Assembly: GCA_002928965.1 (NCBI GenBank)
Contig: PERU01000001.1
Coordinates: forward strand, 186,001-250,000
From: Methylomonas sp.
Lineage (GTDB): Bacteria; Pseudomonadota; Gammaproteobacteria; Methylococcales; Methylomonadaceae
DNA: 64,000 nucleotides
Direction: 5' to 3'
Shown: positions 4,528 through 20,993 of the stretch, in pieces
Numbering within the stretch: the stretch's first letter is position 1
Layout of the letters: each line of letters begins with the position of its first letter
Position numbers and translations under genes: made by a program
Notes under the pieces: model-generated
What the model saw: the letters and a program-made list of their open reading frames with translations, nothing else
Databases searched by the model: none
What the model was told of the DNA's origin: nothing

Positions 4528-5724
4528 TCATATCCTGAGGTTAGACAAACAGCTCTGCGCCTGAATGGCGATTTCCAATTCTTCCTGGGTGTTTATCACC
4601 AACACTTTAACCTTTGAATCATCCGCATGAATAGCGCCACAGGGGCGGGCCGGCTGCTTATTTTGAATCTCATCGACACAAATGCCCAAGCCACTGAGGT
4701 TGTTGCAGGCCTGCTGTCTCAACCAGTGATCATTTTCGCCAATGCCACCGGTAAATACCAAGGCATCCACTTTGCCCAGTACAGCAAAGTAGGCACCGAT
4801 ATATTTCTTGATGCGGTAAGCATACATCTGCAAAGCCAGTTTGGCCCGGGCATCGCCCGCATCTGCCATGCTGTGGATGGTACGCATATCGTTTTCACCA
4901 CAGACGCCTTTACAACCGCTTTCTTTGTTCAACAAGGTTTCGATGGCGTCCAACGGCAGGCCGAGACTGCGACTCAGGTAAAAATGCAAAGCCGGATCGA
5001 TGTCGCCGCAACGGGTTCCCATCATCAAGCCTTCCAGAGGGGTCATGCCCATAGAGGTATCGATGCTCTGGCCCTTCTCGATAGCGGTGACACTGGCACC
5101 ATTGCCTAAATGCAAGCTGATCAGATTGAGTTGCTGCAGAGGTTTACCCAAAAACTCGGCGGCCTGTTTGGCTACATAACGATGTGAGGTGCCATGAAAG
5201 CCGTAACGGCGCACACCTTGATGTTGATAAAGCGATTCAGGCAGAGGATAACGATAGGCGTAATCGGGCAGGCTTTGGTGAAAAGCTGTGTCGAATACCG
5301 CTACCTGAGGTGTGTTGGCCATCAGTTGCATGGTGGCTTCTATGCCGAGCAAGTTGGCCGGATTATGCAAAGGCGCTAACGGCACCATCCCGGCAATCTG
5401 CCGGATCACTTCGGCATCTATACGGACTGGTTGCTGAAATAACTCACCACCATGTACCACACGGTGACCTATGCAACTTAAATCTGCATGGTTGATGAGA
5501 CCGCTGCTGGAGAGTGTCTCGAACAATACGTTTAAGGCATGTTGATGATCGGCTATGACTTGTTCAGAACGAGACACCTCCTGATTCAACAGTTGATAAC
5601 GATGTAAAGCCAGAGGCTCGCCAATTCGTTCAATAAGACCACTGAGCAGTGTGCTGTGATCTGCCATGGCAAATAAACTGTATTTGATGGAGGAACTACC
5701 GGCGTTCAGAACCAGAATTTTCAT
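4528..5724 (-). CDS. ackA: Acetate kinase
   Basis: The protein has 398 residues, the usual acetate kinase length. The N-terminal phosphate-binding signature LNAGSSSIKY is at residues 6-15. Further family signatures GHRVVHGGE, GFHGTSHRY and FTGGIGEND follow in order. The enzyme interconverts acetyl phosphate plus ADP with acetate plus ATP in the cytosol and pairs with phosphate acetyltransferase, encoded about 0.9 kb upstream on the same strand. Between the two lie a small exported-protein gene and about 420 bp of repeats, so ackA may have its own promoter. Such a pathway would support acetate overflow or fermentation. Confidence 0.96.
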   Translation of the reverse strand: MKILVLNAGSSSIKYSLFAMADHSTLLSGLIERIGEPLALHRYQLLNQEVSRSEQVIADHQHALNVLFETLSSSGLINHADLSCIGHRVVHGGELFQQPVRIDAEVIRQIAGMVPLAPLHNPANLLGIEATMQLMANTPQVAVFDTAFHQSLPDYAYRYPLPESLYQHQGVRRYGFHGTSHRYVAKQAAEFLGKPLQQLNLISLHLGNGASVTAIEKGQSIDTSMGMTPLEGLMMGTRCGDIDPALHFYLSRSLGLPLDAIETLLNKESGCKGVCGENDMRTIHSMADAGDARAKLALQMYAYRIKKYIGAYFAVLGKVDALVFTGGIGENDHWLRQQACNNLSGLGICVDEIQNKQPARPCGAIHADDSKVKVLVINTQEELEIAIQAQSCLSNLRI

Positions 5725-5823
5725 GCGCGTAGTGGGGTTGGCTAAGAGGAAAGTTTGGGTTTTGTCTGCCTAAGGAAGCGCTGAACACATCGATTTTGCT
5801 CATACTCTCTGGGGCACAAGTGG

Positions 5824-5931
5824 TTCGACAAGCTCTCGGCAACTGCTCCTGTGTTGCTCTAACTCTTCTGCATCCATGCGGTCGACCACGAACGGAATCA
5901 GACACTTACCGTTCGCCCTGAGCCTGTCGAA
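5824..5931. repeat. Inverted-repeat intergenic element (TTCGACAAGCTC family)
   Basis: The ends are inverted: TTCGACAAGCTC at 5824-5835 and GAGCCTGTCGAA at 5920-5931, with one mismatch. The inner part has GTTCGCCCTGAGCC. A related element with the same core (GTTCGCCCTGAG..GTCGAAG) lies at 32280-32380, so this is a dispersed intergenic family. No coding potential is apparent. Confidence 0.6.
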
Positions 5932-5978
5932 GGGGTTAATCAGCGCTTCCCTAATTCTACTTTGACATAGTCAAAACG

Positions 5979-6140
5979 GCCGTCATGCCCGTTGGGAAGC
6001 GGGCATCCAGCGCCATGGATGGTAAGCTTCAATCCATTCATGAGAGCTGGATTCGCTTCGCGGTCTTCGGCTCCGGCAATCCCTTGGTGTCCCAGAAGGT
6101 ATGCCGGAATGACGAGTATCTACGCCAATCGGACATAGTA
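5979..6140. repeat. Dispersed intergenic repeat, about 160 bp, copy 1
   Basis: The sequence GGGAAGCGG..CATCCAGCGCCA..GG, then GAGAGCTGGATTCGCTTCGC, GGTCTTCGGCTCCGG and GGAATGACGAGTA recurs with high similarity at 8925-9085. The short ends GCCGTCAT and ATGACGAG are roughly inverted. It lies between ackA and the small exported-protein gene, just downstream of that gene's stop. It resembles the CGTCATTCC-ended intergenic repeats common in proteobacteria. No reading frame or transposase is present. Confidence 0.7.
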
Positions 6141-6143
6141 GAA

Positions 6144-6668
6144 CTAATGGACCGGTAATTTTCGCGGTGGCGGTGGTGTATACCGATTTTCCAGCTGCGC
6201 ATCGATTTTGTCAGCCAGTGTTTCCACGGCTTTGATAACCAATTCTGAGTTGGGACCTTTGGATTCGGTGATGAAACTGGCTATCTGTTTTTGGTTATCC
6301 ACTTTAATTAGGTGTCCCATCAGATAGGCAAACAAAAAGCTGGGTTTATGCAAGCGGCCGACCAACACATAATCGGCGCCAAATTGTTTACCCAAGCCGG
6401 CTGCCGTGTCCGCATGATCGAATAAGTAACCGACACCGCTGTCGGCTGCATGTTGTGCGGCAAGTGGTATATCTATGATTGTGTAACCTGCCGAAGCCAG
6501 CTCCTTTTGAAGTAAGGGCTGAATGGACGCTGTGCGCTGAATTTCGGCAGGAATGCCGGGGGCCAGAGTTAAATCTTTCAGCTCAAAATCCAGAATGGCA
6601 ATCCGTGGCTCAGCGTTAAGCGTCGCGCTGATCAGGCAAAACAGTGCGCTTAGAAATAGTTTCATCAT
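6144..6668 (-). CDS. Small exported protein, DUF2380/DUF3280-like
   Basis: The protein has 174 residues with a clear signal peptide (MMKLFLSALFCLISATLNA) cleaved before EPRIAILDFELKDL. The IAILDFELxDLT start, the ADYVLVGRLHKPS segment and the AVETLADKIDAQL helix resemble a family of periplasmic proteins annotated DUF2380/DUF3280 in methylotrophs; I am not certain of the number. The C-terminus is Pro-rich (PPPPRKLP). The start overlaps the pta stop by 4 nt (ATGA), so it is probably translated with pta, although a link to acetate metabolism is not evident. Confidence 0.75.
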   Translation of the reverse strand: MMKLFLSALFCLISATLNAEPRIAILDFELKDLTLAPGIPAEIQRTASIQPLLQKELASAGYTIIDIPLAAQHAADSGVGYLFDHADTAAGLGKQFGADYVLVGRLHKPSFLFAYLMGHLIKVDNQKQIASFITESKGPNSELVIKAVETLADKIDAQLENRYTPPPPRKLPVH

Positions 6669-8794
6669 AGTTCCCCGGTTTCTTGGGCCTGAATGGCGGT
6701 AATAACGATGGTACTGACAATATCAGGCACAGTGCAACCCCGACTCAAGTCGTTCACAGGTTTATTCAGGCCTTGCAGGATCGGACCGACGGCTATGGCG
6801 CCGGAAGAGCGCTGTACGGCTTTGTAAGTATTGTTGCCGGTGTTGAGGTCTGGAAAAATAAACACACTGGCCTGACCACCAACTTCACTGCCTGGCAGCT
6901 TGGTTTTGGCGACACCAAAATCAACGGCGGCGTCATATTGCATGGGGCCTTCCAGTTTTAAATCCGGGCGCAAGGCTTGGGCGATTTTTACCGCATCCCG
7001 AACCTTGTCTACGGACTCGCCTTTACCTGAATTGCCTGTCGAATAGGACAGCATGGCCACACGAGGTTCGATATTGAACATTTTGGCAGTGTCTGCCGCG
7101 CTAATGGCAATGGCTGCCAATTCTTCAGCGTTGGGATTTGGATTGACCGCGCAATCTCCGTATACCAACACCCTGTCTTCGAGGCACATAAAAAAGATGC
7201 TGGAGACAATGGCCGTGCCCGGTTTGGTTTTGATGATTTCGAATGCAGGACGGATGGTGTGCTGGGTGGAATGTACCGCGCCGGATACCATGCCATCTGC
7301 AAAGCCAAGGTGAATCATCATGGTCCCAAAATAACTGACATCCGCCATCAAATCGAAAGCGGTGGCGTAGATGATGTTTTTATGTTTTCGCGCTTCGAAA
7401 TAGGCCTGAGCAAACAGCGGACGCAGTTCCGATGTCATCGGGTCAATCACATCAACTTCCGGCAGCTTGAGCGCCAGTGTCTGTATTTTTTGGCGGATCT
7501 CCGCTTCATTACCCAACAAGGTAATCTTTACCACATCACGCAATAACAATATTTCCGCTGCACGCAGAATCCGTTCTTCGGTGCCTTCAGGCAGCACAAT
7601 GTGTTGTTTTTTGGCCTTGGCACGCTGTAGTTGATCGTATTCAAACATCAGCGGCGTCATTTTATGGGTGACTTGGCTGAGCATGCGCTGCCGCAATTCC
7701 GGTATATCGATATTGCTTTCCAACAAGCCCAGGGCTTTGGCGATTTTTCTATCATCTTGCGAATGCAGGCGAGCTGGCACCTGACTAACCCGCATGGCGG
7801 TAGTAAAGGTGTCCGAATCCACCCCGAGCACCGCAAAAGGCAGATCGCCCAATCCTTCGATCAAGGCCTTGACTTGTGGGCCGGGTTCCTGATGACCGGT
7901 TAACAACAAGCCGGAAATTTGCGGGTAGTTGGTTGAATGGTAGGTCAGCAAACTGGCCAGAATGATGTCTGAACGATCGCCCGGCGTGATGATCAAGTCA
8001 CCGGCTTGTACATAATTGAGAAAGTCCGGTACCAACATGGCTGCTACCTTGTAATGATAGACTTCGCGGCCAAGTTTAGTGTTGTCCGAGGTAAACATTT
8101 TGGCGTCCAGCGCATGAGCGATGTTGCCGATGGTGGGCTTGTCCAGAGACTGCTCGGCAGGTACCACGTAAATCGGAAAACTGCCGGGATTGCCCAAGGT
8201 GGAACGCAGTGTTTCTATGTGTTTGAAATTAACACCATTAATCACCACGGCCAGCACATCGTTATCGTGTTCGTTTAATTCGTATTTTAAGCTGGCAAGG
8301 TTGTTTAATGTTTGTAGATTGTCCATATCGCCGGCCGGCATGACCGGCAACATCAAACAATCCAGATTATTGGCAACCTGGGCGTTAAAATCAAATTCAA
8401 ACATCGAGTCGCCATGTCGGTAATCCGAACCTATGCACAATACGTAATCGCACTGGCTTTTTAAGGCGCGATACTTAGCCAGAATGATTTTATGCAATTC
8501 ATCGGATTGCTCGTTAGCCAATAATTCACGGGCTTCATGACTTTGGCAACCGTAAAGAGATTCGTAGGGCAAATCCAGTTGGTAGCGATAAAGAATAAAC
8601 TGGATCAGTTCGTCTTTTTTATCGCCCGATTGAATGATTGGGCGGAAAAAGCCGATTTTGCCGGCATTGCCCATCAACAGCTCCATAATGGCCAGCATGA
8701 TGATGGACTTACCGCTGTTGCGATTGGTACCTGTGATATAGATGTTTTTCGCTAGTAACGATTGTTCTTCGGTTTCAGGTACGGAAGTATTCAT
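6665..8794 (-). CDS. pta: Phosphate acetyltransferase, long form
   Basis: The 709-residue protein matches the long (E. coli-like) Pta. It has an N-terminal BioD-like P-loop domain (ITGTNRNSGKS near residues 20-30), a central DRTGG-type domain with SDIILASLLTYH, and a C-terminal PTA_PTB catalytic domain starting at about residue 390 (QHIVLPEGTEERIL). Catalytic-domain hallmarks include SGAVHSTQHTIRP, ARVAMLSYSTGNSGKG-like text and QDLSRGCTVPDIV-like text near the end. It converts acetyl-CoA plus phosphate to acetyl phosphate. The start is ATG at 8794. It is the first gene of a minus-strand cluster continuing to the exported protein and then ackA. Confidence 0.96.
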   Translation of the reverse strand: MNTSVPETEEQSLLAKNIYITGTNRNSGKSIIMLAIMELLMGNAGKIGFFRPIIQSGDKKDELIQFILYRYQLDLPYESLYGCQSHEARELLANEQSDELHKIILAKYRALKSQCDYVLCIGSDYRHGDSMFEFDFNAQVANNLDCLMLPVMPAGDMDNLQTLNNLASLKYELNEHDNDVLAVVINGVNFKHIETLRSTLGNPGSFPIYVVPAEQSLDKPTIGNIAHALDAKMFTSDNTKLGREVYHYKVAAMLVPDFLNYVQAGDLIITPGDRSDIILASLLTYHSTNYPQISGLLLTGHQEPGPQVKALIEGLGDLPFAVLGVDSDTFTTAMRVSQVPARLHSQDDRKIAKALGLLESNIDIPELRQRMLSQVTHKMTPLMFEYDQLQRAKAKKQHIVLPEGTEERILRAAEILLLRDVVKITLLGNEAEIRQKIQTLALKLPEVDVIDPMTSELRPLFAQAYFEARKHKNIIYATAFDLMADVSYFGTMMIHLGFADGMVSGAVHSTQHTIRPAFEIIKTKPGTAIVSSIFFMCLEDRVLVYGDCAVNPNPNAEELAAIAISAADTAKMFNIEPRVAMLSYSTGNSGKGESVDKVRDAVKIAQALRPDLKLEGPMQYDAAVDFGVAKTKLPGSEVGGQASVFIFPDLNTGNNTYKAVQRSSGAIAVGPILQGLNKPVNDLSRGCTVPDIVSTIVITAIQAQETGEL

Positions 8795-8924
8795 GTCGCT
8801 ATTTTAGACAGTGGTGGCTGAATCGATTTTACTGTAAATTCGGCACCATGAGCGCTTTTAAGGAAGGAAAATATTCATACATTTAAAGCTGATTGGTTGC
8901 TTCTACTTTGTTATGTTTAAAAAC

Positions 8925-9085
8925 TGCCATCATACTCGCCGGGAAGCGGCGCATCCAGCGCCAGGGGTAGTAAGATTCAATCCATCCATGAGATCTGGAT
9001 TCGCTTCGCGGTCTTCGGCTCCGGGCAATCTAATTGTGCCCCAGAGGGTATGTCAGAATGACGAGTACCTGCGCGAATCTGACAA
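8925..9085. repeat. Dispersed intergenic repeat, about 160 bp, copy 2
   Basis: This is the second copy of the element at 5979-6140, in the same orientation. It shares GGGAAGCGG, GCATCCAGCGCCA, GGATTCGCTTCGCGG, TCTTCGGCTCCGG and GAATGACGAGTA. It sits in the divergent space (8795-9210) between pta and the FHA gene, which otherwise holds only A/T-rich promoter-like DNA. No reading frame is seen. Confidence 0.7.
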
Positions 9086-9210
9086 AAGTTTACAGGCCGT
9101 TGTAAATGAGAACTCAATCTGTGAAATTAAAAATAATGTTGGAGAAATCGGCAAGCCTTGGCTCAGCGACTATACTACTGTCGGTTGCAGGGATTATTTA
9201 GATAACTCAA

Positions 9211-9858
9211 ATGGCAAAACTTACCCTTTATTTTAAAGATAAACCTATATTTTCAGGTATTTATGATACCGGTGTGATTCATATCGGCCGGGATGATACC
9301 AATGAAATTGTGGTCGATAGCTTGGCGGTTGCCCCTGCGCATGCTGCCGTGGTGATAAAGGATGGCAGCTGCATGATCAAGCAGTTGAACGAGAAATTTC
9401 CACTGTTAATCAATAATCTGGCTGTAAAAGAATGGGCGCTGCAAAACAATGATGTCATCAATGTTGGTAAACATTACATTACCTTCTCCGTCACTGAAAC
9501 GTTTTTGAACAATCAGCCTCAAAATCCACAGGCAACTGCTGAAAAAGATCCGGATGTGCTGGCACTGAATCATAAGCTGGATCAATCCGTGCAACAACAG
9601 GAAGCCAATCTGCAAATCATGGATGGTCCGCATATCGGACGCATTTTACCGCTGAAAAAAGCCATGACCCGCTTGGGACACGAAGGGGCAGGCGTCGTCG
9701 TGATTGCGCGTCGAAAAAATGGCTATTTTGTGTCTGCCCTACAAGGTCACGAAGGCTTGGCTGTCAACAAGCAGCCTTTAGGCGAAACTACGGTGTTATT
9801 GAAACACAACGATATTATCGAAGTAGACAAAACCCCCATGCAGTTCTTTTTGGAGTAA
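9211..9858 (+). CDS. FHA-domain protein
   Basis: This 215-residue cytosolic protein has an N-terminal forkhead-associated domain (residues about 18-95). The phosphothreonine-pocket pattern is visible as IHIGRDDTN..IVVDS..VAPAHAAV, followed by LNEKFPLLINNLAV. A second, weaker beta-rich FHA-like segment begins near residue 130 (LQIMDGPHIGRILPLKKAMTRLG) and ends with KHNDIIEVDKTPMQFFLE, so this may be a tandem FHA protein. FHA domains bind phosphothreonine peptides. The next gene, a PilZ protein, starts 7 nt downstream, suggesting a two-gene operon joining phospho-peptide and c-di-GMP signalling. No kinase gene is adjacent. Confidence 0.85.
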   Translation: MAKLTLYFKDKPIFSGIYDTGVIHIGRDDTNEIVVDSLAVAPAHAAVVIKDGSCMIKQLNEKFPLLINNLAVKEWALQNNDVINVGKHYITFSVTETFLNNQPQNPQATAEKDPDVLALNHKLDQSVQQQEANLQIMDGPHIGRILPLKKAMTRLGHEGAGVVVIARRKNGYFVSALQGHEGLAVNKQPLGETTVLLKHNDIIEVDKTPMQFFLE

Positions 9859-9865
9859 AAGTCTT

Positions 9866-10234
9866 ATGACGGAAACAGTGCACGATCAACGACATTTTCA
9901 ACGCATTTTCTACAATGCAGAAGCGGTTATTTCGGATAGCATTTCTTCATTGGCGTGCAAAGTGGTGGATATTTCCCTGAAAGGTTGCTTGCTTGACTTT
10001 GGCGTTCCTTGGCCCGGTAAGCATGATGCACGCTATGAACTGGTTTTAAGATTGTCTGAAGACGTTACCATCAACATGGTGCTCAAGTTTGCTCATGGTG
10101 CGGGTAGTCAAGTCGGCTTCAAATGCGAACACATCGATATTGACAGCATCACCAACTTACGCAGATTGGTTGAATTGAATCTCGGCAATTCCGAGATGCT
10201 GGAAAGAGACTTACAGGCGCTATCAGGTTTGTAA
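9866..10234 (+). CDS. PilZ-domain protein, probable c-di-GMP receptor
   Basis: This 122-residue protein consists of a single PilZ domain. Both halves of the c-di-GMP binding signature are present: RHFQR (RxxxR, residues 9-13) and DISLKGC (D/NxSxxG, near residue 34). PilZ proteins bind c-di-GMP and alter motility, attachment or polysaccharide export through partner proteins. It is separated by 7 nt from the FHA gene, so the two are likely co-expressed. A hairpin terminator follows. The partner is not evident from the sequence. Confidence 0.88.
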   Translation: MTETVHDQRHFQRIFYNAEAVISDSISSLACKVVDISLKGCLLDFGVPWPGKHDARYELVLRLSEDVTINMVLKFAHGAGSQVGFKCEHIDIDSITNLRRLVELNLGNSEMLERDLQALSGL

Positions 10235-10247
10235 CTAAAAATTGTAA

Positions 10248-10270
10248 ATAAAGCCAGAAACTGGCTTTAT
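10248..10270 (+). terminator. Hairpin terminator after the FHA-PilZ pair
   Basis: A perfect 10-bp inverted repeat (ATAAAGCCAG, AAA loop, CTGGCTTTAT) sits 14 nt after the PilZ stop. The A/T-rich arm ends make it usable from both strands, and the facing gene at 10295-10570 ends just beyond it. Confidence 0.65.
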
Positions 10271-10294
10271 GTTGTGTAGGATAAATATTCTGTA

Positions 10295-10570
10295 TTACAT
10301 CTGTGGTTGATTCCAGCCACGGTTTTTATCTACCCATTTCATGCTCAGCCAATACCACAGCGTCATGGGCAGCATCATCGCAAACCATTCCCAATCGTCG
10401 ATCAAAAACAACTGCGAAACCCAGGGTATATCGTTAAAAAATAACGGCCAAGGTACGCAATACACAGAAAAAATCACACTGCTCCATATCAAAATCAACG
10501 CGCCTTTGCGCGTTTCTATACTTGAAAAAGCCAAAAAAACCCACAGCGGCATACTGCTATCTTTTTGCAT
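10295..10570 (-). CDS. Small membrane protein of unknown function
   Basis: The ATG at 10570 is chosen because GGAG lies 7 nt upstream; an in-frame ATG at 10582 would start before that site. The product has about 91 residues, rich in Trp, Phe, Leu and Met. It has two to three hydrophobic segments (MPLWVFLAFSSIE, ILIWSSVIFSVYCVPW, MMLPMTLWYWLSMKWV) and a charged C-terminus. I do not recognise a named family, though small Trp-rich inner-membrane proteins of this shape are common. It converges with the PilZ gene. Confidence 0.65.
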   Translation of the reverse strand: MQKDSSMPLWVFLAFSSIETRKGALILIWSSVIFSVYCVPWPLFFNDIPWVSQLFLIDDWEWFAMMLPMTLWYWLSMKWVDKNRGWNQPQM

Positions 10571-10582
10571 CGAATTCTCCAT

Positions 10583-10810
10583 TTAGTGTTGAGCAGGGTT
10601 ATTGTGAAAGTTATTTAAATCGATAACCCAATAATAATGCCATCTTACTGTGAGAACAGACAAGCCAAATTGGTTTTACTGTGAAAGTTACCTTGGGAGC
10701 GATGCTGAGCTTTCAAGCACGTTAGGCAGAAAAACTAGTTATTCGTTAATTTAATGTATTCTGATTAAATAATAATAAAAACCATATAAATCAAGTGTTT
10801 ATATGTATCT
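10583..10810. other. A/T-rich intergenic spacer
   Basis: No gene is seen here. The stretch carries A/T-rich promoter-like DNA and joins the start of the duplicated unit at about 10811. Further on, a hairpin GCGCTAA/TTAGCGC lies near 10933-10963 in copy 1 but is not conserved in copy 2. Confidence 0.4.
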
Positions 10811-11174: not shown

Positions 11175-12095
11175 ATGAAAAAAAATATATTAGCCGCATT
11201 GGCAATAACCCTTGCCGGTTTTTTATCGATCCAAAATGCATCGGCTCATGTTGGTTGGGTAGGTCGTGACTTAATGACCGACGCCACATCGTCTACCGTT
11301 AACCCGAATGGCTCGACTACCTATGTTTATGATCGTGGTAACGTCACCGGCAATTGGGGATGGGCCGACGGTTTGACGGGTGCTTTGGCGCCAAATCCCG
11401 CATTCAATGATCAAGGGGATAGTCATCGTGTGCGTTTCACCAAGTTTTACTTGGGGACTACCTCTTTTGTTGATTTGACGGTGAAGGCGCAAGATTTTTC
11501 TCGTAATACCGCAGACAACAACACCGTAACGCGTTTGGGTGACTTGAACCCAGGCTTCTCGATCTATTCCGGCAGCGGTACCTTGAATAATCCATTGAAT
11601 CCAGCAACGAATGTTTATGAGGCTTGGCGCGATCACGACTTGGTGCCACAAGCGGTTCATGATTGGGCGGTGAATCCAAATGCTGCTGCGTTAGGTTTTG
11701 AAGGTTCGTTTAATGCCAATGGCAACATTACCATGGGTAACAACAATGGCCAGATTAATACACAAGTTTTCACTGGTCATCTTGCCTCCAATTCGACTGG
11801 CAATTCCGTAAGTCTGTCGAATCTTGTTCTAGGCCCAGGTTGGTATTCCGTTGTCGTGGGTGGTTCGTTGTTAGACGGTATTGAGTATCTTACAAATCCA
11901 GCGGCTACTCATGACCCCAATATCGTAGCTGGAACGACTTTCCCTTATCTAGGTGCTCACGCTGTTTTGGATAACCAAATCCGCGGTTTTGGTGTTGAGC
12001 TAACCGTCAGACCTGTGCCGGTTCCAGGTGCTGTTTGGTTGTTTGGTTCAGCCATTGCCGGTTTGATTGGTTTTGGCCGTCGTAAAGCCGCGTAA
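11175..12095 (+). CDS. PEP-CTERM-type surface protein, His-Val N-terminus (paralog 1)
   Basis: The protein has 306 residues. A signal peptide (residues 1-24, ending NASA) is followed by His25-Val-Gly-Trp. The C-terminus has a PEP-CTERM/VPLPA-type sorting tripartite: VPVPGAVWLFGS, a hydrophobic helix and GRRKAA. Such tails are recognised by an exosortase and anchor or release proteins at the outer surface. The internal motifs GW-x-x-G, GDSH (His84), GNITMGNN and LGPGWYSVVVGG are shared with the proteins at 12793, 14096 and 16501. I know of no named function for this body. The start has a good ribosome site (AAGAGGA). The riboswitch-like leader implies c-di-GMP control. Confidence 0.85.
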   Translation: MKKNILAALAITLAGFLSIQNASAHVGWVGRDLMTDATSSTVNPNGSTTYVYDRGNVTGNWGWADGLTGALAPNPAFNDQGDSHRVRFTKFYLGTTSFVDLTVKAQDFSRNTADNNTVTRLGDLNPGFSIYSGSGTLNNPLNPATNVYEAWRDHDLVPQAVHDWAVNPNAAALGFEGSFNANGNITMGNNNGQINTQVFTGHLASNSTGNSVSLSNLVLGPGWYSVVVGGSLLDGIEYLTNPAATHDPNIVAGTTFPYLGAHAVLDNQIRGFGVELTVRPVPVPGAVWLFGSAIAGLIGFGRRKAA

Positions 12096-12151
12096 TCAAG
12101 CGACTTGAGTTTCTGGATTTTATTGGGATTGCATATGAACAAGGATGTTCT

Positions 12152-12170
12152 GGAGCAAGGAAGCTCCTTT
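12152..12170 (+). terminator. Weak hairpin after paralog 1
   Basis: GGAGC and GCTCC arms with a 6-nt loop are followed by TTT. The same structure recurs after paralog 2 at 13872-13891, where the T-run is four. Confidence 0.4.
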
Positions 12171-12327
12171 GAATTTCGGGGATTTAGTGGTTTGTCTTCA
12201 TAGTCGTAATTGTTCACCACTTCGTTTGTAAAAGGAGGCATGGGGATTTATTAAATAAAATCTCCCCCTAAATGCCCTTTTCCAAGAGGGATATTGAACG
12301 TTAATAATAGTCGGATGATTCACTTGT

Positions 12328-12404
12328 TTGGGTACGGATCAAGTAAACAACGTATCCCATACGTTAAATCAATATTAGGCCATGGCTGGGTTGAAGGAAC
12401 AGAA
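12328..12404 (+). pseudogene. Remnant of the gene now intact at 14096
   Basis: This DNA closely matches codons about 29-53 of the gene at 14096-14929. Read in frame it gives LGTDQVNNVSHTLNQY, then a TAG stop. A one-base indel follows, after which the next matching codons (GW-V-G-T) continue in another frame. The signal-peptide region (about 130 bp in the intact copy) is deleted, joining GATTCACTTG directly to TTTGGGTAC. Downstream, the DNA passes straight into the leader of paralog 2. This indicates that a two-gene unit was duplicated and the second gene of the first copy was lost. Confidence 0.8.
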
Positions 12405-12624
12405 AATAGGAAAGCAGTTATATCTTTCAAAGTGTGGCATATGAGGCTAAGGATCAGGTTACTTAACATAGATTAATTACAAAACCATTTGATTAAGTAT
12501 ATTAGGAAATAATTTAAATTGATGATTCCTAGTATTTTACTTGGTTTTGGCTCGATACTTGTTATAAACGCTGTGTTAGCGCACCAACTGTCATGAAACT
12601 TTAATAATTAGCATGGTAGAGGAT

Positions 12625-12724
12625 GCCGTTAACGTAGCCACACCCGTCGCGAGGCGGGGTCGGAAAGCCACGGGTCTCATTTTTTTGAGATGGCCGGGCC
12701 GCCTCCTGTAGTGATGGGGAGGTC
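12625..12724 (+). ncRNA. c-di-GMP-I (GEMM) riboswitch-like leader, copy 2
   Basis: This is nearly identical to the leader at 11006-11105. The differences fall in the P3 loop (CATTTTTTTG in place of CATGCCTTTG) and as compatible changes around the P3 base (GCCACGGG in place of GCTGCGGG), which preserve pairing. The GNRA-capped P2, the GCC/CGGAAAG ligand-pocket bases and the GGGGAGG downstream arm are retained. It precedes paralog 2 by about 70 nt. Confidence 0.82.
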
Positions 12725-12792
12725 AAGGCAGGTGCGGGGGAATTGCTTTGGACATGACTGTTAACTATTCCGTAACAGTAAAGAGGATCATT

Positions 12793-13815
12793 ATGAAAAA
12801 AAATATCGCACTATCATTGCTTGCTTTGGCTGGCCTGCTCTTGGGTAGTCAGGCATTTGCGCACGTGGGTTATGGCACGTCTTTGTACGACCAAGCTACC
12901 AATACCTACGCTGGTGCGGGTACCGGTGGTTTGAATCCCACCGTTTCCAGCAATGCGGGATGGATTTCCGGTTTGAGCAACAATGGCGTCAATCGTACCG
13001 CTACTACGGATACTTACGGTGACAGTCATAACAACCGTTTCCGTTCTTTCACCCTGACTCAACAATCCCAAGTCAGCTTCACAGTCACTGGTGCTGCCAA
13101 CAGCAACGGTGCTTCTGTTTTGAACCCTGGCGTATCGATTTTCAGTGGTTTGGTGCCTGCTTCTTCGCATGATGGCGTAGGTGACCTTAACGGCTTGTCT
13201 CCAGCAGTGGCAGCAGGTCTTACCGGTTCCGCAGCAACGCAAGCGTACTTGGCTTCATTGCCGGGCTTTGCCTCCTGGTCGCCATTTTATGACGCCAACG
13301 ACGAAATCCTGGCTGCTGGCGGTGCCGCAGATGTTCCGGGCAACCGCGACAAATGGGGTGTGTTCAAATCGGATGGAAACTTCACCATGGGTAACAACAG
13401 TGGTTTAGTGAACGGTGTGACCTTTATTGATGCGGTAGCAGACGCGGCTTCCGGCGCTTACGCTGACGGCAACGTGGATAACAGCGTTAGCTGGAGTGGT
13501 TTGCTCGGCCCTGGCACTTACACCATGACGATTGGTGGAGCCAGTTTGGCTGATTTGACTGCATTGTTTGCAGCGGTTCAAGAAGGTACACCTGGCGCTG
13601 CTTCTGTCGATTGCACATCATTTGGTGCAGCTGGCTGTAATGGTACTCAGTGGCCGGGTGTAAATACCACTCCAGGTACTTACTCTAACCTGCGCTTAGC
13701 CCGTAACATGAACATCGCGTTCAATGTTCAAGCGGTGCCGGTTCCAGGTGCTGTTTGGTTATTCGGTTCAGCCATTGCCGGTTTGATTGGTTTTGGCCGT
13801 CGTAAAGCCGCGTAA
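12793..13815 (+). CDS. PEP-CTERM-type surface protein, His-Val N-terminus (paralog 2)
   Basis: The start at 12793 is preferred over an in-frame upstream ATG at 12748. It has the same AAGAGGA ribosome site as paralog 1 and gives a normal signal peptide (MKKNIALSLLALAGLLLG, then SQAFA). The 340-residue product would begin at His24-Val-Gly-Tyr when mature. The motifs GWISG, GDSH (His79), LNPGVSIFSG, GNFTMGNNSG and LGPGTYTMTIGG are present, then VPVPGAVWLFGS, a helix and GRRKAA as the sorting tail. The last 26 codons and the flanks nearly match paralog 1 at DNA level, whereas the middle is strongly diverged. A surface role is inferred from the tail; biochemical function is unknown. Confidence 0.85.
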   Translation: MKKNIALSLLALAGLLLGSQAFAHVGYGTSLYDQATNTYAGAGTGGLNPTVSSNAGWISGLSNNGVNRTATTDTYGDSHNNRFRSFTLTQQSQVSFTVTGAANSNGASVLNPGVSIFSGLVPASSHDGVGDLNGLSPAVAAGLTGSAATQAYLASLPGFASWSPFYDANDEILAAGGAADVPGNRDKWGVFKSDGNFTMGNNSGLVNGVTFIDAVADAASGAYADGNVDNSVSWSGLLGPGTYTMTIGGASLADLTALFAAVQEGTPGAASVDCTSFGAAGCNGTQWPGVNTTPGTYSNLRLARNMNIAFNVQAVPVPGAVWLFGSAIAGLIGFGRRKAA

Positions 13816-13871
13816 TCAAGCGACTGGAATTTCTGGATTTTATTGGGAATTGCATATGAACAAGGATGTCC

Positions 13872-13891
13872 GGAGCAAGGACGCTCCTTTT
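13872..13891 (+). terminator. Weak hairpin terminator after paralog 2
   Basis: GGAGC/GCTCC arms with a 6-nt loop are followed by TTTT. It is the copy of the hairpin at 12152-12170. Confidence 0.4.
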
Positions 13892-14095
13892 AATTTGGGG
13901 GATTTAGTGGTTTGTCTTCATAGTCGTAACTGTTCACCAACCCCTTTGTAAAAGGGGGCGTGGGGGATTTATTAAATAAAATCTCCCCCTAAATTCCCTT
14001 TTCCAAGAGGGTCACTGAACGTTACTAATAGTCGGATGATTCACTTGAATTAACATCAGCGTTATTAATTATTAAACATTAATGAGACATTCATT

Positions 14096-14929
14096 ATGAT
14101 CATCATCAGTCGTTTGTTTGCTGTATGCAGTATTTTGCTGTTCAGTTTTGCCGCTCAGGCGCATGTATCATTTACTGATTTGGGTACAGACCCGGTCAAC
14201 ACAGTATCCCATACACTAAATCAATATAAGGCCTATGGCTGGGTTGATGGAACCGATGCCGATTTGGGTGACAGTCATGCGATTGGTGGCGTTTCAGCTC
14301 GCTGGTATCGTTTCACCTTAACTCAGGCATCAAACGTAGACATCAGCTTCATTCAAAATACCTCAGGTCTGGATCCTGCCTTCACCCTATATAAAGGGGC
14401 TTTTTATCTAGGCGCGCACGACTGGGCCGAATACGACTACGTCAATCCGGTTGACGACGATTTTAATTACATTGCCAGCCCGACCGATAGCGACCCCAGC
14501 GGCTTGTATCTCAAACATTCAGGTTATCGCGATACGGCCAACATCGAATACGAAGGCCAATTCGATGCTTTCGGTGACTGGAGCATGGCCAATTACGCCG
14601 ATCAGTGGACCACCATTCAGTACGTCATTGCAGTTTCCGGCACTTCCGACTCGGATCCGTCACGCGGACTGGTCTGGGGCGGTAACGGCAATCATTCGAC
14701 TGCAATTGGTACTGGCGAAACACTGTCAAACTTTTTACTAGGCCCGGGTGTTTATTCCATCGCCGCCGGCGGCGAACGCTGCAATACTTCTGCAGCCTCC
14801 TGTACCTCGCCCAATTACAGAGCAACCCTGTCGTTAACCGTTCGTCCGGTGCCGGTGCCAGGTGCGGTGTGGTTGTTTGGTTCCGTATTGGCGGGTTTTG
14901 GAATGCGCTGCCGCACGCGCAACGCTTAA
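14096..14929 (+). CDS. PEP-CTERM-type surface protein, His-Val N-terminus (paralog 3)
   Basis: The 277-residue protein has a signal peptide (residues 1-22, ending AAQA) and predicted mature start His23-Val-Ser-Phe. The shared motifs are GWVDG, GDSH (His61), LDPAFTLYKG, AHDWAEYDY, GDWSMANY and LGPGVYSIAAGG. The C-terminus carries VPVPGAVWLFGS, a hydrophobic helix and a basic end (RCRTRNA), a slightly altered sorting tail. A disulfide is possible (ERCNTSAASC). The gene lies 38 nt before the PQQ-type dehydrogenase gene and is probably co-transcribed with it. No riboswitch directly precedes it, so expression may come from read-through of paralog 2 or its own promoter. Confidence 0.84.
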   Translation: MIIISRLFAVCSILLFSFAAQAHVSFTDLGTDPVNTVSHTLNQYKAYGWVDGTDADLGDSHAIGGVSARWYRFTLTQASNVDISFIQNTSGLDPAFTLYKGAFYLGAHDWAEYDYVNPVDDDFNYIASPTDSDPSGLYLKHSGYRDTANIEYEGQFDAFGDWSMANYADQWTTIQYVIAVSGTSDSDPSRGLVWGGNGNHSTAIGTGETLSNFLLGPGVYSIAAGGERCNTSAASCTSPNYRATLSLTVRPVPVPGAVWLFGSVLAGFGMRCRTRNA

Positions 14930-14967
14930 CCGAGTGTTTGCTACTGTTGCTCATTGAGGTCTAAACC

Positions 14968-16404
14968 ATGACTACAAAACATAACTTATATAAATGCTTG
15001 ATGATCGGGACGGTTTTTGCCGTGTCAACGGCGCACGCGCAAATCGTTTCCAATCCGTTCGATCCCTACGATCCTTTTCCGCAGGCTATTGGTCAAAGTG
15101 CTATTTCCATCCATTTACACTCTATTGCCTCCGGTTTCACTGCGCCCAATCTGTTGACTCATGCCAATGATGGTAGCGACCGGTTGTTTGTACTTGATCA
15201 GAAAGGCAGTGTGCAGTTGATCAAAAATGGCGTGGTGCAAGCCAATCCGTTTCTTAACGTTAGCTCCCGCTTGGTTAACTTGAATCCGAATTACGATGAA
15301 CGCGGCTTTCTGGGGTTTGCCTTTCATCCCGATTACGCCAATGTCGGCACGGCGGGATACGGCAAGGTGTACACATACACCAGCGAACCCCGGATAGCGG
15401 GCAGTGCAGATTTTTCGGTGCCCTTGCAATCGCCGTCACCGAATTATAACCACCAATCTGTCGTGGCCGAGTGGCAAGTCAACCCGCAAAATCCGGACGT
15501 GATCAATCCTGCCTCAAGGCGTGAAGTGATGCGTATCGACCAACCGCAATCCAACCATAATGGCGGTATGTTGGCATTTGGTCCTGATGGTCATCTATAC
15601 ATTTCCCTTGGAGACGGCGGTAGTGCCAACGATGTCGGAAATGGTCATGGCACTATTGGTAATGGTCAGAATGCCGGCAATATTTTGGGCAGCATTGTGC
15701 GCATCGATCCCACTGGCACCAACAGCGCCAATGGAAAATACGGTATCCCAGGTGATAATCCATTTGTTAACGACCCGGCAAAACTGGATGAAATCTATGC
15801 TTACGGTTTACGCAACACTTGGCGATTCAGCTTTGATAAAAGTACCGGACAAATGGTGGCTGCCGATGTCGGCCAAGGTTCGGTGGAAGAGGTCAACCTG
15901 ATTACTGCCGGTGGTAACTATGGTTGGAATCTCAAAGAAGGCCAGTTCCGCTTCGACCCGGCAACGGGTTTGGTCAGCAACAATCTGAGCGGTCTGCCAG
16001 CCGATCTGATAGACCCCGTGTTGCAATACGACCATACCGAAGGTTTTTCGATCACCGGTGGATTTGTCTATCGCGGTTCGGACATTCCTGAGTTATATGG
16101 CAAATATGTATTCGGCGACTGGGGCTCGTTCGGCTTTCCGAGTGGGCGGATTTTCGTCGGCGATCTGACCAACGGCATCATAGAGGAGCTGAATATCGCC
16201 AATATGACGGATTTGTCGATGTGGATACTGGGCTTCGGCGAAGATGCACAAGGCGAACTTTATGTACTGGGCAGCAGTCAGCGTGGGCCAGGCGGCTTCA
16301 CGGGACAGGTATTCAAATTGGCTGCGGTGCCCTTGCCGTCAGCGTTTTGGCTATTGGGTAGCGGTTTGCTGATGTTGTATCGCAAGCGGTTGCTCATGGG
16401 TTGA
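14968..16404 (+). CDS. PQQ-dependent sugar dehydrogenase-like protein with PEP-CTERM tail
   Basis: The 478-residue exported protein has a signal peptide ending STAHA and a six-bladed propeller of the soluble glucose/aldose dehydrogenase family. Family hallmarks include RGFLGFAFHPDY, HNGGMLAFGPDGHLYISLGD, YGLRNTWRFSFD and ADVGQGSVEEVN. The C-terminus ends VPLPSAFWLLGSGLL plus basic residues, a classic VPLPA/PEP-CTERM sorting signal, which is uncommon in this enzyme family. It may oxidise sugars or other polyols at the cell surface, but substrate and PQQ use are inferred. It lies 38 nt after paralog 3 and 96 nt before paralog 4, suggesting a surface-protein operon. Confidence 0.86.
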   Translation: MTTKHNLYKCLMIGTVFAVSTAHAQIVSNPFDPYDPFPQAIGQSAISIHLHSIASGFTAPNLLTHANDGSDRLFVLDQKGSVQLIKNGVVQANPFLNVSSRLVNLNPNYDERGFLGFAFHPDYANVGTAGYGKVYTYTSEPRIAGSADFSVPLQSPSPNYNHQSVVAEWQVNPQNPDVINPASRREVMRIDQPQSNHNGGMLAFGPDGHLYISLGDGGSANDVGNGHGTIGNGQNAGNILGSIVRIDPTGTNSANGKYGIPGDNPFVNDPAKLDEIYAYGLRNTWRFSFDKSTGQMVAADVGQGSVEEVNLITAGGNYGWNLKEGQFRFDPATGLVSNNLSGLPADLIDPVLQYDHTEGFSITGGFVYRGSDIPELYGKYVFGDWGSFGFPSGRIFVGDLTNGIIEELNIANMTDLSMWILGFGEDAQGELYVLGSSQRGPGGFTGQVFKLAAVPLPSAFWLLGSGLLMLYRKRLLMG

Positions 16405-16500
16405 TTTCATAGTGTAAATTTTCCCCACGCTTGCTTTTGATCTGGGAAATTGCCGGGTCAAGGTTAAACAAATTTTTTAATTTCATTCAGGATATAAACA

Positions 16501-17250
16501 ATGAACAAGAAACTGATTTTAGCCGGTGCCATCGGCCTGAGTATTTTCGGCTCGTCTAGTGCCTTCGCGCATGTGGACTATGGCGATTTGAATGCATTTC
16601 CTACTCAAAGCACTACTTTTCTACGCAAAGGCTGGTTTGCGGGTACCGATACCCCTCTTAGCGGCTGTGGTTTGGACGGCACTGCGGAATGTCTTGGTGA
16701 CAGCCATCAGTTACAATTTTTTAAATTTAGTTTGGCGCAAGATTCGCTGATTAACTTAAGTTTTACTTCAATTCAGAATGGACTGAATCCTGCCTTTTCC
16801 CTGTATCGTGGTTTACTGCCGGACGAAGCGCATGATGACACATCCACTGATCCATTAAATGCCGTGGATGGCAATTTCGATCCGATATCTCATCCTACTG
16901 ACTCAGCGTATTGGGACAGCAACAATATCCGTGAAGGTCAGTTCAACGCATTCGGCAACTGGAGTATGGCCAACGACGATGAAGCTTGGGCAGAGATTGT
17001 GTATATCACCCATAAAAACGATTTTTCTGCCTCCAGTGTGGGTAGTGTCGAGGCTTTGACCAATTATTTCCTGCAGGCCGGCAGTTATACAGTCGCTGCA
17101 GCCGGTGCAACCAGTAGTGGCCCTTCGGCGCTGTTGCAAGGAACTATTGCATTCAGTGCCTCACCTGTACCGGTTCCAGGCGCAGTGTGGTTGTTCGGTT
17201 CGGCTATTGCCGGCTTGATCGGTTTTGGCAAGCGTAAATCTGCAGTTTGA
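16501..17250 (+). CDS. PEP-CTERM-type surface protein, His-Val N-terminus (paralog 4)
   Basis: The 249-residue protein has a signal peptide (residues 1-23, ending SAFA) and predicted mature start His24-Val-Asp-Tyr. The motifs GWFAG, GDSH (His69), LNPAFSLYRG, AHDDTS and GNWSMAND are shared with paralogs 1-3, most closely with paralog 3. Cys56 and Cys64 flank CGLDGTAEC just before the GDSH motif and could form a disulfide. The sorting tail is VPVPGAVWLFGS, helix, GKRKSAV. A strong intrinsic terminator follows at 17354-17392. The function is unknown; a surface location is inferred. Confidence 0.84.
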   Translation: MNKKLILAGAIGLSIFGSSSAFAHVDYGDLNAFPTQSTTFLRKGWFAGTDTPLSGCGLDGTAECLGDSHQLQFFKFSLAQDSLINLSFTSIQNGLNPAFSLYRGLLPDEAHDDTSTDPLNAVDGNFDPISHPTDSAYWDSNNIREGQFNAFGNWSMANDDEAWAEIVYITHKNDFSASSVGSVEALTNYFLQAGSYTVAAAGATSSGPSALLQGTIAFSASPVPVPGAVWLFGSAIAGLIGFGKRKSAV

Positions 17251-17599: not shown

Positions 17600-19171
17600 A
17601 TGGCAAAGAAACACTCAACTCAGCGCCATGTGGCGCAACATGCCCGTCTGCTGACACCCGGCAAGTCACTGTTACTGACGACGGTGACCCTCAGCGGTGG
17701 CGCGGTGATGATCCTGGAATTATTGGGTACCCGTATCATTGCACCGTATTATGGTGCCAGCTTATATGTGTGGTCCGCACTGATTGCGGTGACAATGATT
17801 GCTTTGGCGTTGGGTTACTATTTGGGCGGATATTTGGCCGACCGATACCCCAAATTGCGTTTGGCGCATGTGCTGATGTTCGCCGCTTTGGCGACCAGCG
17901 TAATCCCGTTTAGCAGTGCAACAGTGCTGCATCTGACCAATGCTTTGGGGATGCGAGGTGGGGCATTTTGCAGTGCCTTGTTGTTGTTTGGCCTGCCGTT
18001 GACCGCGTTGGCCATGGTAGGGCCATTTGTGATCAAATTAGCCACAGAAACCCTGGAAGATGTCGGTAGCACCGTGGGTGCCGTGTATGCCATCAGTACG
18101 GTCGGCAGTGTCGTAGCCACCCTGTTGTTGGGTTTTGTGCTGTTGCCTTGGTTGGGTACCCGCAGCATAATTTTCTCGCTGGCGCTAATCTTGGTGCTGA
18201 TGGCCGTGGTGTTGATGTGGCGGGACCGGCAAGGGTTCCCCGCCAACAGGGGCGTGATGCCGGTGATTTTTTTAGGGCTGCTTTCCTCTTTGCTCAGCGT
18301 CAAAGGCTACGCCAGCCCCGAAAAAACCAATGCCACCATGCGGGTATTGCATCAAGCCGAAAGTATTTATGGCTGGGTCAGGGTGGTGGATAACCAAACC
18401 AGCGACGCGCGACTGCTGTTATCCGATGCTTCGGTGTTAAGCGCCATGTCCTTATCCAGCGGCCAAACCCTGTTGCATTATCAAACCATTATCGCTTCTC
18501 TGCCAGTCTTGCGACCTGCGGCCAGCGATGCGTTATTGGTGGGTTTGGGCGGCGGACATATTGCACGGGAATTAAAAGCCAAAGGTCTGGCCACAGACAC
18601 CATAGAAATCGACCCGGTGGTGGCGCAGGCTTCGCTGGATTATTTTGGTTTTAAACCCACTGGTGAGTTTATCGTTGGCGATGCCCGCTACGAAGTCAAA
18701 AAACTCAACAAGCAATACGATTTCATCATCCATGATTGTTTTACCGGCGGTTCCGAACCGACCCATTTATTAACGGTGGAAATGCTGAGTGATTTGCGCA
18801 GATTATTAAAACAAGACGGCATTCTGGCGTTGAACTATGTCGGCTTTACCCGAGGTGAGGGCACAGAAGCCGTAGCCTCTGTCTACAAAACACTGAAAAG
18901 CGTGTTGCCTAATGTGAAGGTGTTCATTACCGAAAAAACCGAAATGACGGATTTCATCATGCTGGCATCGAATTCGGCGATTGAATTGGATGCGAATAGC
19001 CGCGATCAGCGTAGCCAATGGTTGACGGATCACCAATATGCTTTAAGTGAACAAGGGGGAATATTGATTACAGACGACTACAACCCGATGGAAAGCATGC
19101 AACTCAGAAAAGCCGAAGCCTATCGAGACATATTTCTCAAACGGGTAGCACCTGAACTTTTGCTGATCTGA
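17600..19171 (+). CDS. Membrane-fused spermidine synthase-like protein
   Basis: The 523-residue protein has about seven N-terminal membrane helices (residues 20-225: GGAVMILELLGTRIIAPYYG, then several Leu/Val/Ala-rich helices). A C-terminal Rossmann-like SpeE domain starts near residue 245. The domain shows the SAM/dcSAM-binding motif VGLGGGHIARELK, EIDPVV and DARYEVKK, with HDCFTGG where true spermidine synthases have a catalytic Asp. It matches the class annotated 'fused MFS/spermidine synthase', whose substrate is unclear. The gene sits between two inverted MITE copies, and the left one ends 31 nt before its ATG, so its promoter may come from that element. Confidence 0.85.
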   Translation: MAKKHSTQRHVAQHARLLTPGKSLLLTTVTLSGGAVMILELLGTRIIAPYYGASLYVWSALIAVTMIALALGYYLGGYLADRYPKLRLAHVLMFAALATSVIPFSSATVLHLTNALGMRGGAFCSALLLFGLPLTALAMVGPFVIKLATETLEDVGSTVGAVYAISTVGSVVATLLLGFVLLPWLGTRSIIFSLALILVLMAVVLMWRDRQGFPANRGVMPVIFLGLLSSLLSVKGYASPEKTNATMRVLHQAESIYGWVRVVDNQTSDARLLLSDASVLSAMSLSSGQTLLHYQTIIASLPVLRPAASDALLVGLGGGHIARELKAKGLATDTIEIDPVVAQASLDYFGFKPTGEFIVGDARYEVKKLNKQYDFIIHDCFTGGSEPTHLLTVEMLSDLRRLLKQDGILALNYVGFTRGEGTEAVASVYKTLKSVLPNVKVFITEKTEMTDFIMLASNSAIELDANSRDQRSQWLTDHQYALSEQGGILITDDYNPMESMQLRKAEAYRDIFLKRVAPELLLI

Positions 19172-20189: not shown

Positions 20190-20993
20190 ATGAACAAAAA
20201 ACTAAATAAAGCCATTGCCGGTTTGTTAGGTGTGGTGGCTCTTTCTGCTGTATCTTCTCAAGCCAGCGCTTTCTCAGCCACTTCTTTGGGGACGTTTACT
20301 GGCGCGACAATTACCCGAAATGACGCTACGCCTTTCAAATCCTGGTCGGATTATGGTGCCAACATCAATTTTGGCTGGGTACACACAGCTGACTGGTTCA
20401 AGCTGCAAGTCGGTTCATCTGCAGACATTACTGCTGGAAACACCTTTAATGTCGGGTTTAAATTGACTGGCCGCGGCACGTCACAACCCTTAAACACAGG
20501 TGGCTTCAGCATATGGACTAGTGGTACTGCTGCAACAGTTGAGGGAGGTGGTTTTCACGAATACAACCAAGTACGTGGGCCTAATGATGGCGGTAAAACA
20601 ACCAACAACAACATAGGCAATGTCATCAGTGGCAGCAATGGCTGGGTGGGTTATGCCCAAAACGGCTTGAGCTTTACCAATGGCGATGGTGACCCGGTTG
20701 CCAACGGCGGTGCTTGGAACACCAGTTCTCCCTATCTAACCGGCGGTGCAGCCAGTTCGGTCGGTGGAGCAACACTTGATTTGTATGGTTTGAAAGCGGG
20801 TTATTATCTGATCGGTTTAGGTGGTGTCTGCCCGGATAACAATGCAGGATGTATCTCGACTAGTCCCGCATCAAGACATTATACGTTCAGCGTGTCCACT
20901 GCAGCACCTGTCCCTGTACCTGGCGCAGTTTGGTTATTTGGCAGTGCGATGGCGGGTTTGGTCGGCTTCAGCAGACGCAAGCTGGCTGCTTAA
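20190..20993 (+). CDS. PEP-CTERM-type surface protein (different body)
   Basis: The ATG at 20190 gives MNKKLNKAIAGLLGVVALSA and a signal peptide ending SQASA; the in-frame GTG at 20178 is less likely. The 267-residue product ends VPVPGAVWLFGS, helix, SRRKLAA, the same sorting tail as the cluster upstream. Unlike paralogs 1-4, the mature end begins Phe-Ser and there is no GDSH motif. The body is rich in Gly, Asn, Ser and Thr, with one possible disulfide (VCPDNNAGC) near residue 220. A riboswitch-like leader precedes it and a strong terminator follows, so it is a stand-alone c-di-GMP-controlled surface protein candidate. The function is unknown. Confidence 0.83.
   Translation: MNKKLNKAIAGLLGVVALSAVSSQASAFSATSLGTFTGATITRNDATPFKSWSDYGANINFGWVHTADWFKLQVGSSADITAGNTFNVGFKLTGRGTSQPLNTGGFSIWTSGTAATVEGGGFHEYNQVRGPNDGGKTTNNNIGNVISGSNGWVGYAQNGLSFTNGDGDPVANGGAWNTSSPYLTGGAASSVGGATLDLYGLKAGYYLIGLGGVCPDNNAGCISTSPASRHYTFSVSTAAPVPVPGAVWLFGSAMAGLVGFSRRKLAA

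Follow-up and report, generated by a model that had tools for sequence, protein, structure and literature searches.

A PEP-CTERM-tailed relative of the copper proteins CorA and MopE with a predicted N-terminal histidine in Methylomonas

There is still only a partial picture of how methanotrophs gather copper for their methane monooxygenase. Their surface proteins CorA and MopE bind copper(I) at a site that depends on an unusual oxidised tryptophan. A 64,000-nucleotide stretch of a Methylomonas sp. genome (assembly GCA_002928965.1, contig PERU01000001.1, positions 186,001 to 250,000, hereafter the window) encodes four PEP-CTERM-type proteins, A to D, that share a predicted N-terminal histidine and a GDSH motif. 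This raises the question of what these proteins descend from and what their histidines might bind. A first-pass annotation of the same DNA had suggested copper- or metal-binding surface proteins and knew of no described family with this combination. Fold and profile evidence overturns that last point, since the four proteins appear to share a superfamily with CorA and MopE, the methanotroph surface copper proteins, and to form in it a divergent branch with PEP-CTERM tails. This homology is well supported by sequence comparison and predicted models. The host genome measures 4.03 megabases (genome G000 of our set, where the window is contig C1, 186001-250000).

Four secreted proteins and their conserved histidines

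The four genes lie on the forward strand. Protein A (11175..12095) has a signal peptide (11175-11246), a mature domain (11247-12014) and a PEP-CTERM-type tail from 12015; its N-terminal histidine, H1, is encoded at 11247-11249 and the GDSH histidine, His60, at 11424-11426. In protein B (12793..13815), for which the open reading frame (ORF) list begins at an upstream TTG (12748) and the ATG lies at 12793, the signal peptide spans 12793-12861, the mature domain 12862-13734 and the tail starts at 13735, with H1 at 12862-12864, the GDSH His56 at 13027-13029 and a third histidine, His103 of an SHD segment, at 13168-13170. The corresponding segments of protein C (14096..14929) are 14096-14161, 14162-14848 and from 14849, with H1 at 14162-14164, GDSH His39 at 14276-14278 and AHD His86 at 14417-14419. 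Those of protein D (16501..17250) are 16501-16569, 16570-17166 and from 17167, with H1 at 16570-16572, GDSH His46 at 16705-16707 and AHD His88 at 16831-16833. Unlike B to D, protein A has an SIYSG segment that is not directly adjoined by His-Asp, and what the family alignment counts as its third histidine belongs to a VHDW farther downstream.

The signal-like N-termini of A to D finish in ASA, AFA, AQA and AFA, and the next residues are HVGW, HVGY, HVSF and HVDY, so that predicted A-x-A cleavage leaves His-Val at the mature start of all four. The gene starts, cleavage motifs and mature ends given by the first-pass annotation thus check out, as do its precursor numbers 84, 79, 61 and 69 for the GDSH histidine, which are mature residues 60, 56, 39 and 46. 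Of the segments it listed as shared, GW-x-x-G and GDSH are invariant in the four proteins, all of which also match G[ND]-x-[ST]-M-[AG]-N, while LGPG holds for three, the fourth having LQAG. The C-terminal tails read VPVPGAVWLFGS... and end in R or K. Pfam PEP-CTERM falls under its cut-off in three of the proteins, and the fourth has no listed match to it; the features of the class are nonetheless present, with a signal peptide, a C-terminal motif, a transmembrane segment, a basic end and an EpsH-type exosortase encoded in the same genome (E 3.4e-73). These motifs suggest that the four proteins are exported and sorted to the cell surface. A search of the own genome with protein D matched 50 places at E<=1, chiefly via the tail. 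Pfam and NCBIfam gave no above-cut-off name for the mature domain, and the weak NCBIfam floc_PepA matches involve the tail and reach into the domain's C-terminal half. Taken singly, the regions upstream of the genes contain only one 11-base pair, and repeats common to several genes were not sought.

To follow these residues among homologs, we built a family profile (A2) from 23 mature domains and collected homologs with a second version lacking the N-terminal columns, which yielded 107 unique cores. The residue at +1 was counted in the 94 cores at E<=1e-15, of which 86 have a readable signal peptide; the other eight are six without usable upstream sequence plus L178 and L182. Cleavage sites were predicted by two rules, the first of them blind to the following residue. 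Under this first rule, a signal peptide was scored in 78 core homologs and His occupies +1 in 77 of them (redundant counts); the sole exception, L175, has A-F-A-H slightly downstream. The second rule gave 85 of 86, the exception (L204) being a mis-set cleavage with T-L-A-H downstream. By the same kind of rule, 146 other PEP-CTERM ORFs from the same loci include only 14 with His at +1 (redundant counts), most of these 14 being [H]xxYN proteins that were found to be relatives, and PEP-CTERM sorting therefore needs no +1 histidine. After reduction at 70% identity, 54 sequences with a median pairwise identity of 28% remained. H1, at its predicted cleavage site, is aligned in 54/54 of these and the GDSH histidine is present in 52/54, and this pair, whose invariance the first-pass annotation had proposed to check, is thus nearly invariant. 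The third histidine is found in 41/54, the acidic residue after its position in 54/54, and the residue after H1 is variable (V, I, L, W, N). In a genome from another family of the same order (G060), locus L212 carries three large ORFs (5687-8839, 8407-10602 and 12966-15602; 732-1051 residues) that start with the family domain, keep His as the first residue predicted for the mature protein, and lack the usual tail.

Relationship to CorA and MopE

AlphaFold2 was run on proteins D and B. The model of D, from 20 alignment rows, reached a predicted local distance difference test (pLDDT) of 77.4 and a predicted template modelling score (pTM) of 0.80; the model of B is poorer, with a pLDDT of 61.6. 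When the D model was compared with the PDB using Foldseek, the only four chains at E<=1e-3 were three of CorA and one of MopE (5e-6 to 9e-6; CorA 4bz4 at 5e-6 and MopE 2vov at 9e-6), the next match standing at 3.3e-3. The B model retrieved the same four chains, again alone at E<=1e-3 (2.9e-6 to 5.9e-5; next 0.027). The two models are not fully independent because both use one set of 20 sequences. The link to methanotroph copper-binding surface proteins suggested by the first-pass annotation is borne out by these predicted folds. CopC, LPMO and PmoB, which it had also brought in for comparison, are not supported as relatives, with no such chain among the top 50 PDB matches listed for either model. 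A fold search of BFVD returned nothing useful. A plain PPC module, our first idea, was abandoned, its Pfam support being weak and the CorA/MopE fold matches stronger.

Profile comparisons led in the same direction. CorA-type proteins were found beside genes of SACCP, a di-heme peroxidase, with phmmer matches to 4bz4 of 1e-63 and 9e-35. The 4bz4 sequence contains W62-T-H64 and G-H114-A-Y, agreeing with the published ligands. With hhalign, the GDSH family matched 16 CorA-type proteins at 95.3%, GDSH being placed over GWTH in an alignment of 54 columns that stops short of His114; it matched Trp-bearing W-x-H PEP-CTERM relatives at 97.2%, and the latter matched CorA-type proteins at 96.9% and 97.4%. 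Controls with another PEP-CTERM family gave 0.15% and 12.9%, the second across signal peptides. When 468 ORFs of SACCP/CorA loci were searched with the N-terminus-free family profile, W-x-H CorA-type proteins came first (9.7e-12, 6.5e-10 and 5.7e-9), and in the alignments of L278, L279, L248 and L254, lGdSH is placed over lGWTH. The GDSH histidine thus aligns with the CorA ligand His64 in both hhalign and hmmsearch, and the window family is very probably homologous to CorA.

The Trp-bearing relatives include a neighbour in the window itself. The PEP-CTERM-type protein at 20190..20993 (forward strand) carries the CorA signature as GW-V-H (Trp codon 20376-20378, His 20382-20384) with a second histidine in FHEYNQ (20556-20558), and has no N-terminal His. 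Its family profile, A5, matched CorA orthologs at 97.4%, FHEYNQ falling over the GHAYKQ of CorA. Similar PEP-CTERM proteins with W-x-H and a second His, also profile homologs of CorA, occur at L231, L217-L221, L226, L228-L230 and L240, and several adjoin SACCP-type di-heme peroxidase genes. From their sequences, these are likely to be unrecognised kynurenine-type copper proteins, which would extend the CorA family further. One PEP-CTERM protein (L278:425-1198), with GWTHTSNW, VPAFTLWRG and FHTYQQ, passed the Pfam CorA threshold when the genomes were searched and, judged by these motifs, bridges CorA and its PEP-CTERM relatives. Two secreted proteins near SACCP-type genes (L260:5877-6869 and L261:2068-3120) have W-G-M where CorA has W-T-H, possibly a variant with a Met ligand. 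They had been taken for D-x-H proteins without an N-terminal His; the alignment gives W-G-M, and hence they are no counter-examples. Viewed from the SACCP side, a W-x-H secreted protein lies nearby in 13 of 30 loci (flanks of about 1.5 kilobases) and a CorA-type protein in 16 of 20 chosen SACCP regions, while the association of W-x-H with SACCP in control loci was not significant (7/22 vs 7/32, P 0.53).

Among genomes of the host's family, profile A2 matches 31 of 237, in 9 of 29 genera. In broader samples, the profile matches 2 of 369 genomes drawn from the class and 2 of 398 drawn from the phylum, each time the own genome and G382; G060, of the same order, is one further genome with the family. 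Cu_bind_CorA (PF18252) matches 50 of the 237 family genomes, 45 of them strongly (E<1e-15). No genome has both a strong CorA match and a match to the GDSH-family profile, against 5.9 expected from 31 and 45 of 237 (hypergeometric P 0.0009, uncorrected for kinship); in both searches, for CorA and for the family, the number of candidates scored in each genome is limited. Four genera (g12, g283, g290 and g292) contain both kinds in different genomes. In the own genome, no Cu_bind_CorA match was obtained and SACCP-type genes lie on C38 and C4, the one on C38 adjoining a W-x-H protein. MbnP (PF20243) was found in 0 of 121 genomes and in none of the controls either, and is hence uninformative.

A candidate copper site and its alternatives

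The copper ligands of CorA are His64, His114 and a water, with kynurenine 62, formed from Trp62, nearby (PMC3912023, excerpt). In the alignment of 54 homologs, the column two before the GDSH histidine, which corresponds to Trp62, holds D in 41, N in 11, S in 1, T in 1 and Trp in none. The distance from the GDSH to the AHD histidine has a median of 49 residues (range 42-84, n=41), and that from the W-x-H to the HxY histidine of CorA-type proteins is 44-58, mostly 49-51, in 26 of 28. A retained His64, usually a histidine at the spacing of His114, a lost tryptophan and an invariant H1 together make the pattern expected if H1 had replaced kynurenine, which is not proof that it did.

In the mechanism we favor, the protein would be exported and cut by signal peptidase, making His residue 1, and its exosortase-type tail would sort it to the cell surface. 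The domain would be a CorA-like beta sandwich in which the GDSH histidine occupies the place of His64 and the AHD/SHD histidine, where present, probably that of His114. The free N-terminal histidine, with its amine and imidazole, would fill the third position instead of kynurenine 62, Trp62 being Asp or Asn here. Copper would then be held by H1, the GDSH histidine and usually the AHD histidine, with tryptophan oxidation no longer needed, and the likely role, in genomes without a clear CorA, would be to capture copper at the cell surface when it is scarce and pass it on. We consider this mechanism as a whole, including its putative copper binding and the putative closeness of the histidines, to be somewhat favored by the evidence. 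A broader proposal, on which we find the evidence evenly balanced, is that this is a second, cofactor-free design of the CorA/MopE site, in which the kynurenine-forming Trp was lost and the N-terminal His took over, so that Methylomonas and its relatives would use a multi-copy, surface-anchored family instead of CorA, with no need for a peroxidase that oxidises tryptophan. If true, it would illustrate the rebuilding of a copper site with the fold and one or two histidines kept and Trp swapped for an N-terminal His, tie the CorA site to histidine-brace chemistry, account for copper handling in Methylomonas genomes where no clear CorA was found, and offer a site variant testable recombinantly without a modifying enzyme.

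Several observations weigh against this interpretation. As to descent, Cu_bind_CorA matches only 1 of the 23 profile members, under its cut-off (E 0.013), and is unlisted for the four window proteins. A search of PDB sequences with the family profile did not find CorA; neither did profiles A4 and A5 or one relative, and it was reached through the orthologs adjoining SACCP genes. The TM-scores to CorA/MopE are modest, at 0.52-0.56 for the D model and 0.36-0.40 by query length for B. As to the site, the match of the third histidine to His114 is one of spacing, no profile alignment reaching that position in the family, and this histidine is absent from 13/54 non-redundant homologs. His is at +1 in just 10 of 66 Trp-keeping W-x-H proteins (CorA orthologs included; chosen by a motif rule that let in a few doubtful ones, e.g. 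L106:9807 and L083:9428), all ten of the xxYN type; because these keep both, H1 is not purely a replacement for Trp. In L171 and L180, Asp replaces the GDSH histidine in a DDVxWY segment and H1 is the only His of the mature domain, so H1 is there conserved without the proposed site. Finally, the genome-level exclusion of CorA and the family is confounded by kinship, and of the 31 matching genomes, G518 and G523 match via Trp-bearing or more distant proteins and G009 has a weak Cu_bind_CorA match too.

Unlikely, though the best of the alternatives, is a structural or PPC-like binding module of CorA fold that works without copper, with H1 and the GDSH histidine kept for protein folding, for docking of a partner or for calcium or some other metal. 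PPC (PF04151), a generic beta sandwich, weakly matches 2 of the 23 members (best E 0.0015), and the weaker fold matches of the D model include PPC and C2-like sandwiches (PPC 5sv5 at E 6.7e-3). The DDVxWY segment of the two single-His proteins is itself PPC-like, and the invariant acidic residue by the third histidine might be a calcium ligand, CorA being a calcium binder too (PMC3912023, excerpt). Against such a module, few residues are as well conserved as the two histidines, of which one is exposed solely through signal-peptide cleavage and the other aligns with a CorA copper ligand. Less probable still is a strict histidine-brace protein like LPMO, CopC or PmoB, in which H1 and the GDSH histidine would carry out redox chemistry with a single copper. 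A free N-terminal His with a second conserved His, and the gaps at the third, would suit it, and the D-x-H by the second histidine is reminiscent of CopC; yet this Asp is Asn in 11/54, and the top 50 PDB matches listed for each model include none of these proteins, those at E<=1e-3 being CorA and MopE. That the invariant histidine is a functionless by-product of descent and of signal-peptide and sorting constraints is very improbable: the window genes are paralogs and many homologs sit in tandem clusters, but H1 persists at a median identity of 28% beside a variable residue, and other PEP-CTERM proteins are sorted without it.

Gene neighbourhood and comparison with known systems

Between C and D lies a gene for a GSDH-like (glucose/sorbosone dehydrogenase) protein (14968..16404, forward strand) with the tail VPLPSAFWLLGS, and a similar gene occurs in a similar cluster at L193. 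Downstream of D, a membrane protein (17600..19171, forward strand) has MFS and spermine/spermidine-synthase matches. Homologs of the latter were found in 16/41 family loci vs 2/54 control loci, for example at L174, L177, L193, L203, L207 and L212; the loci are not independent in this and the following two comparisons. DUF3570 occurs in 13/41 family loci vs 6/54 control loci (P 0.019), and DUF3570, thioredoxin-like or ApbE genes lie near family clusters at L174, L177, L183, L186, L204 and L207. Genes of these three kinds together make up a flavin-based redox system outside the cytosol that is already known (PMC8238504, excerpt), and a link from them to copper reduction would be speculation. SACCP (CorB-type di-heme peroxidase) gave tblastn matches in 4/41 family loci vs 14/54 control loci (P 0.064), and no match for an adjacent CorB/SACCP gene in the window between 3001 and 27000.

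In the open-access literature, we found no paper joining the histidine brace with PEP-CTERM, nor MopE with PEP-CTERM, and the available part of PMC13274458 does not mention PEP-CTERM. Histidine-brace proteins (LPMO, CopC, PmoB) share with the window family the predicted His at the mature N-terminus, whereas the fold predicted here is none of theirs among the top 50 matches listed for the two models. The PPC domain resembles the family as a generic beta sandwich with weak matches to its members, and differs in the lack of a conserved N-terminal His or GDSH and in its weaker fold match. The W-x-H PEP-CTERM proteins of Methylomonadaceae have the same type of tail and are profile homologs of CorA as well as of the GDSH family, but keep W-x-H and the second His. 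MopE of Methylococcus capsulatus (2vov) is the only other fold match at E<=1e-3 and has a W-T-H motif at the same place; unlike the window proteins, it keeps a Trp oxidised to kynurenine, is larger and has no N-terminal His in the comparison seen.

The closest known system is CorA of Methylomicrobium album BG8 (PF18252, 4bz4). According to excerpts of PMC11784148, M. alcaliphilum induces CorA when copper is limiting, and M. buryatense grew more slowly under mineral limitation when corA was mutated. CorA differs from the window family in having Trp62 (kynurenine) in place of Asp/Asn, a mature end of Ala-Thr by the -3/-1 rule instead of His at residue 1, and non-covalent surface binding beside CorB instead of a PEP-CTERM tail. 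It is nevertheless the top fold match of both models and a profile homolog, with His64 over the GDSH histidine, a histidine at the spacing of His114, a signal peptide, and a methanotroph of the same family as host.

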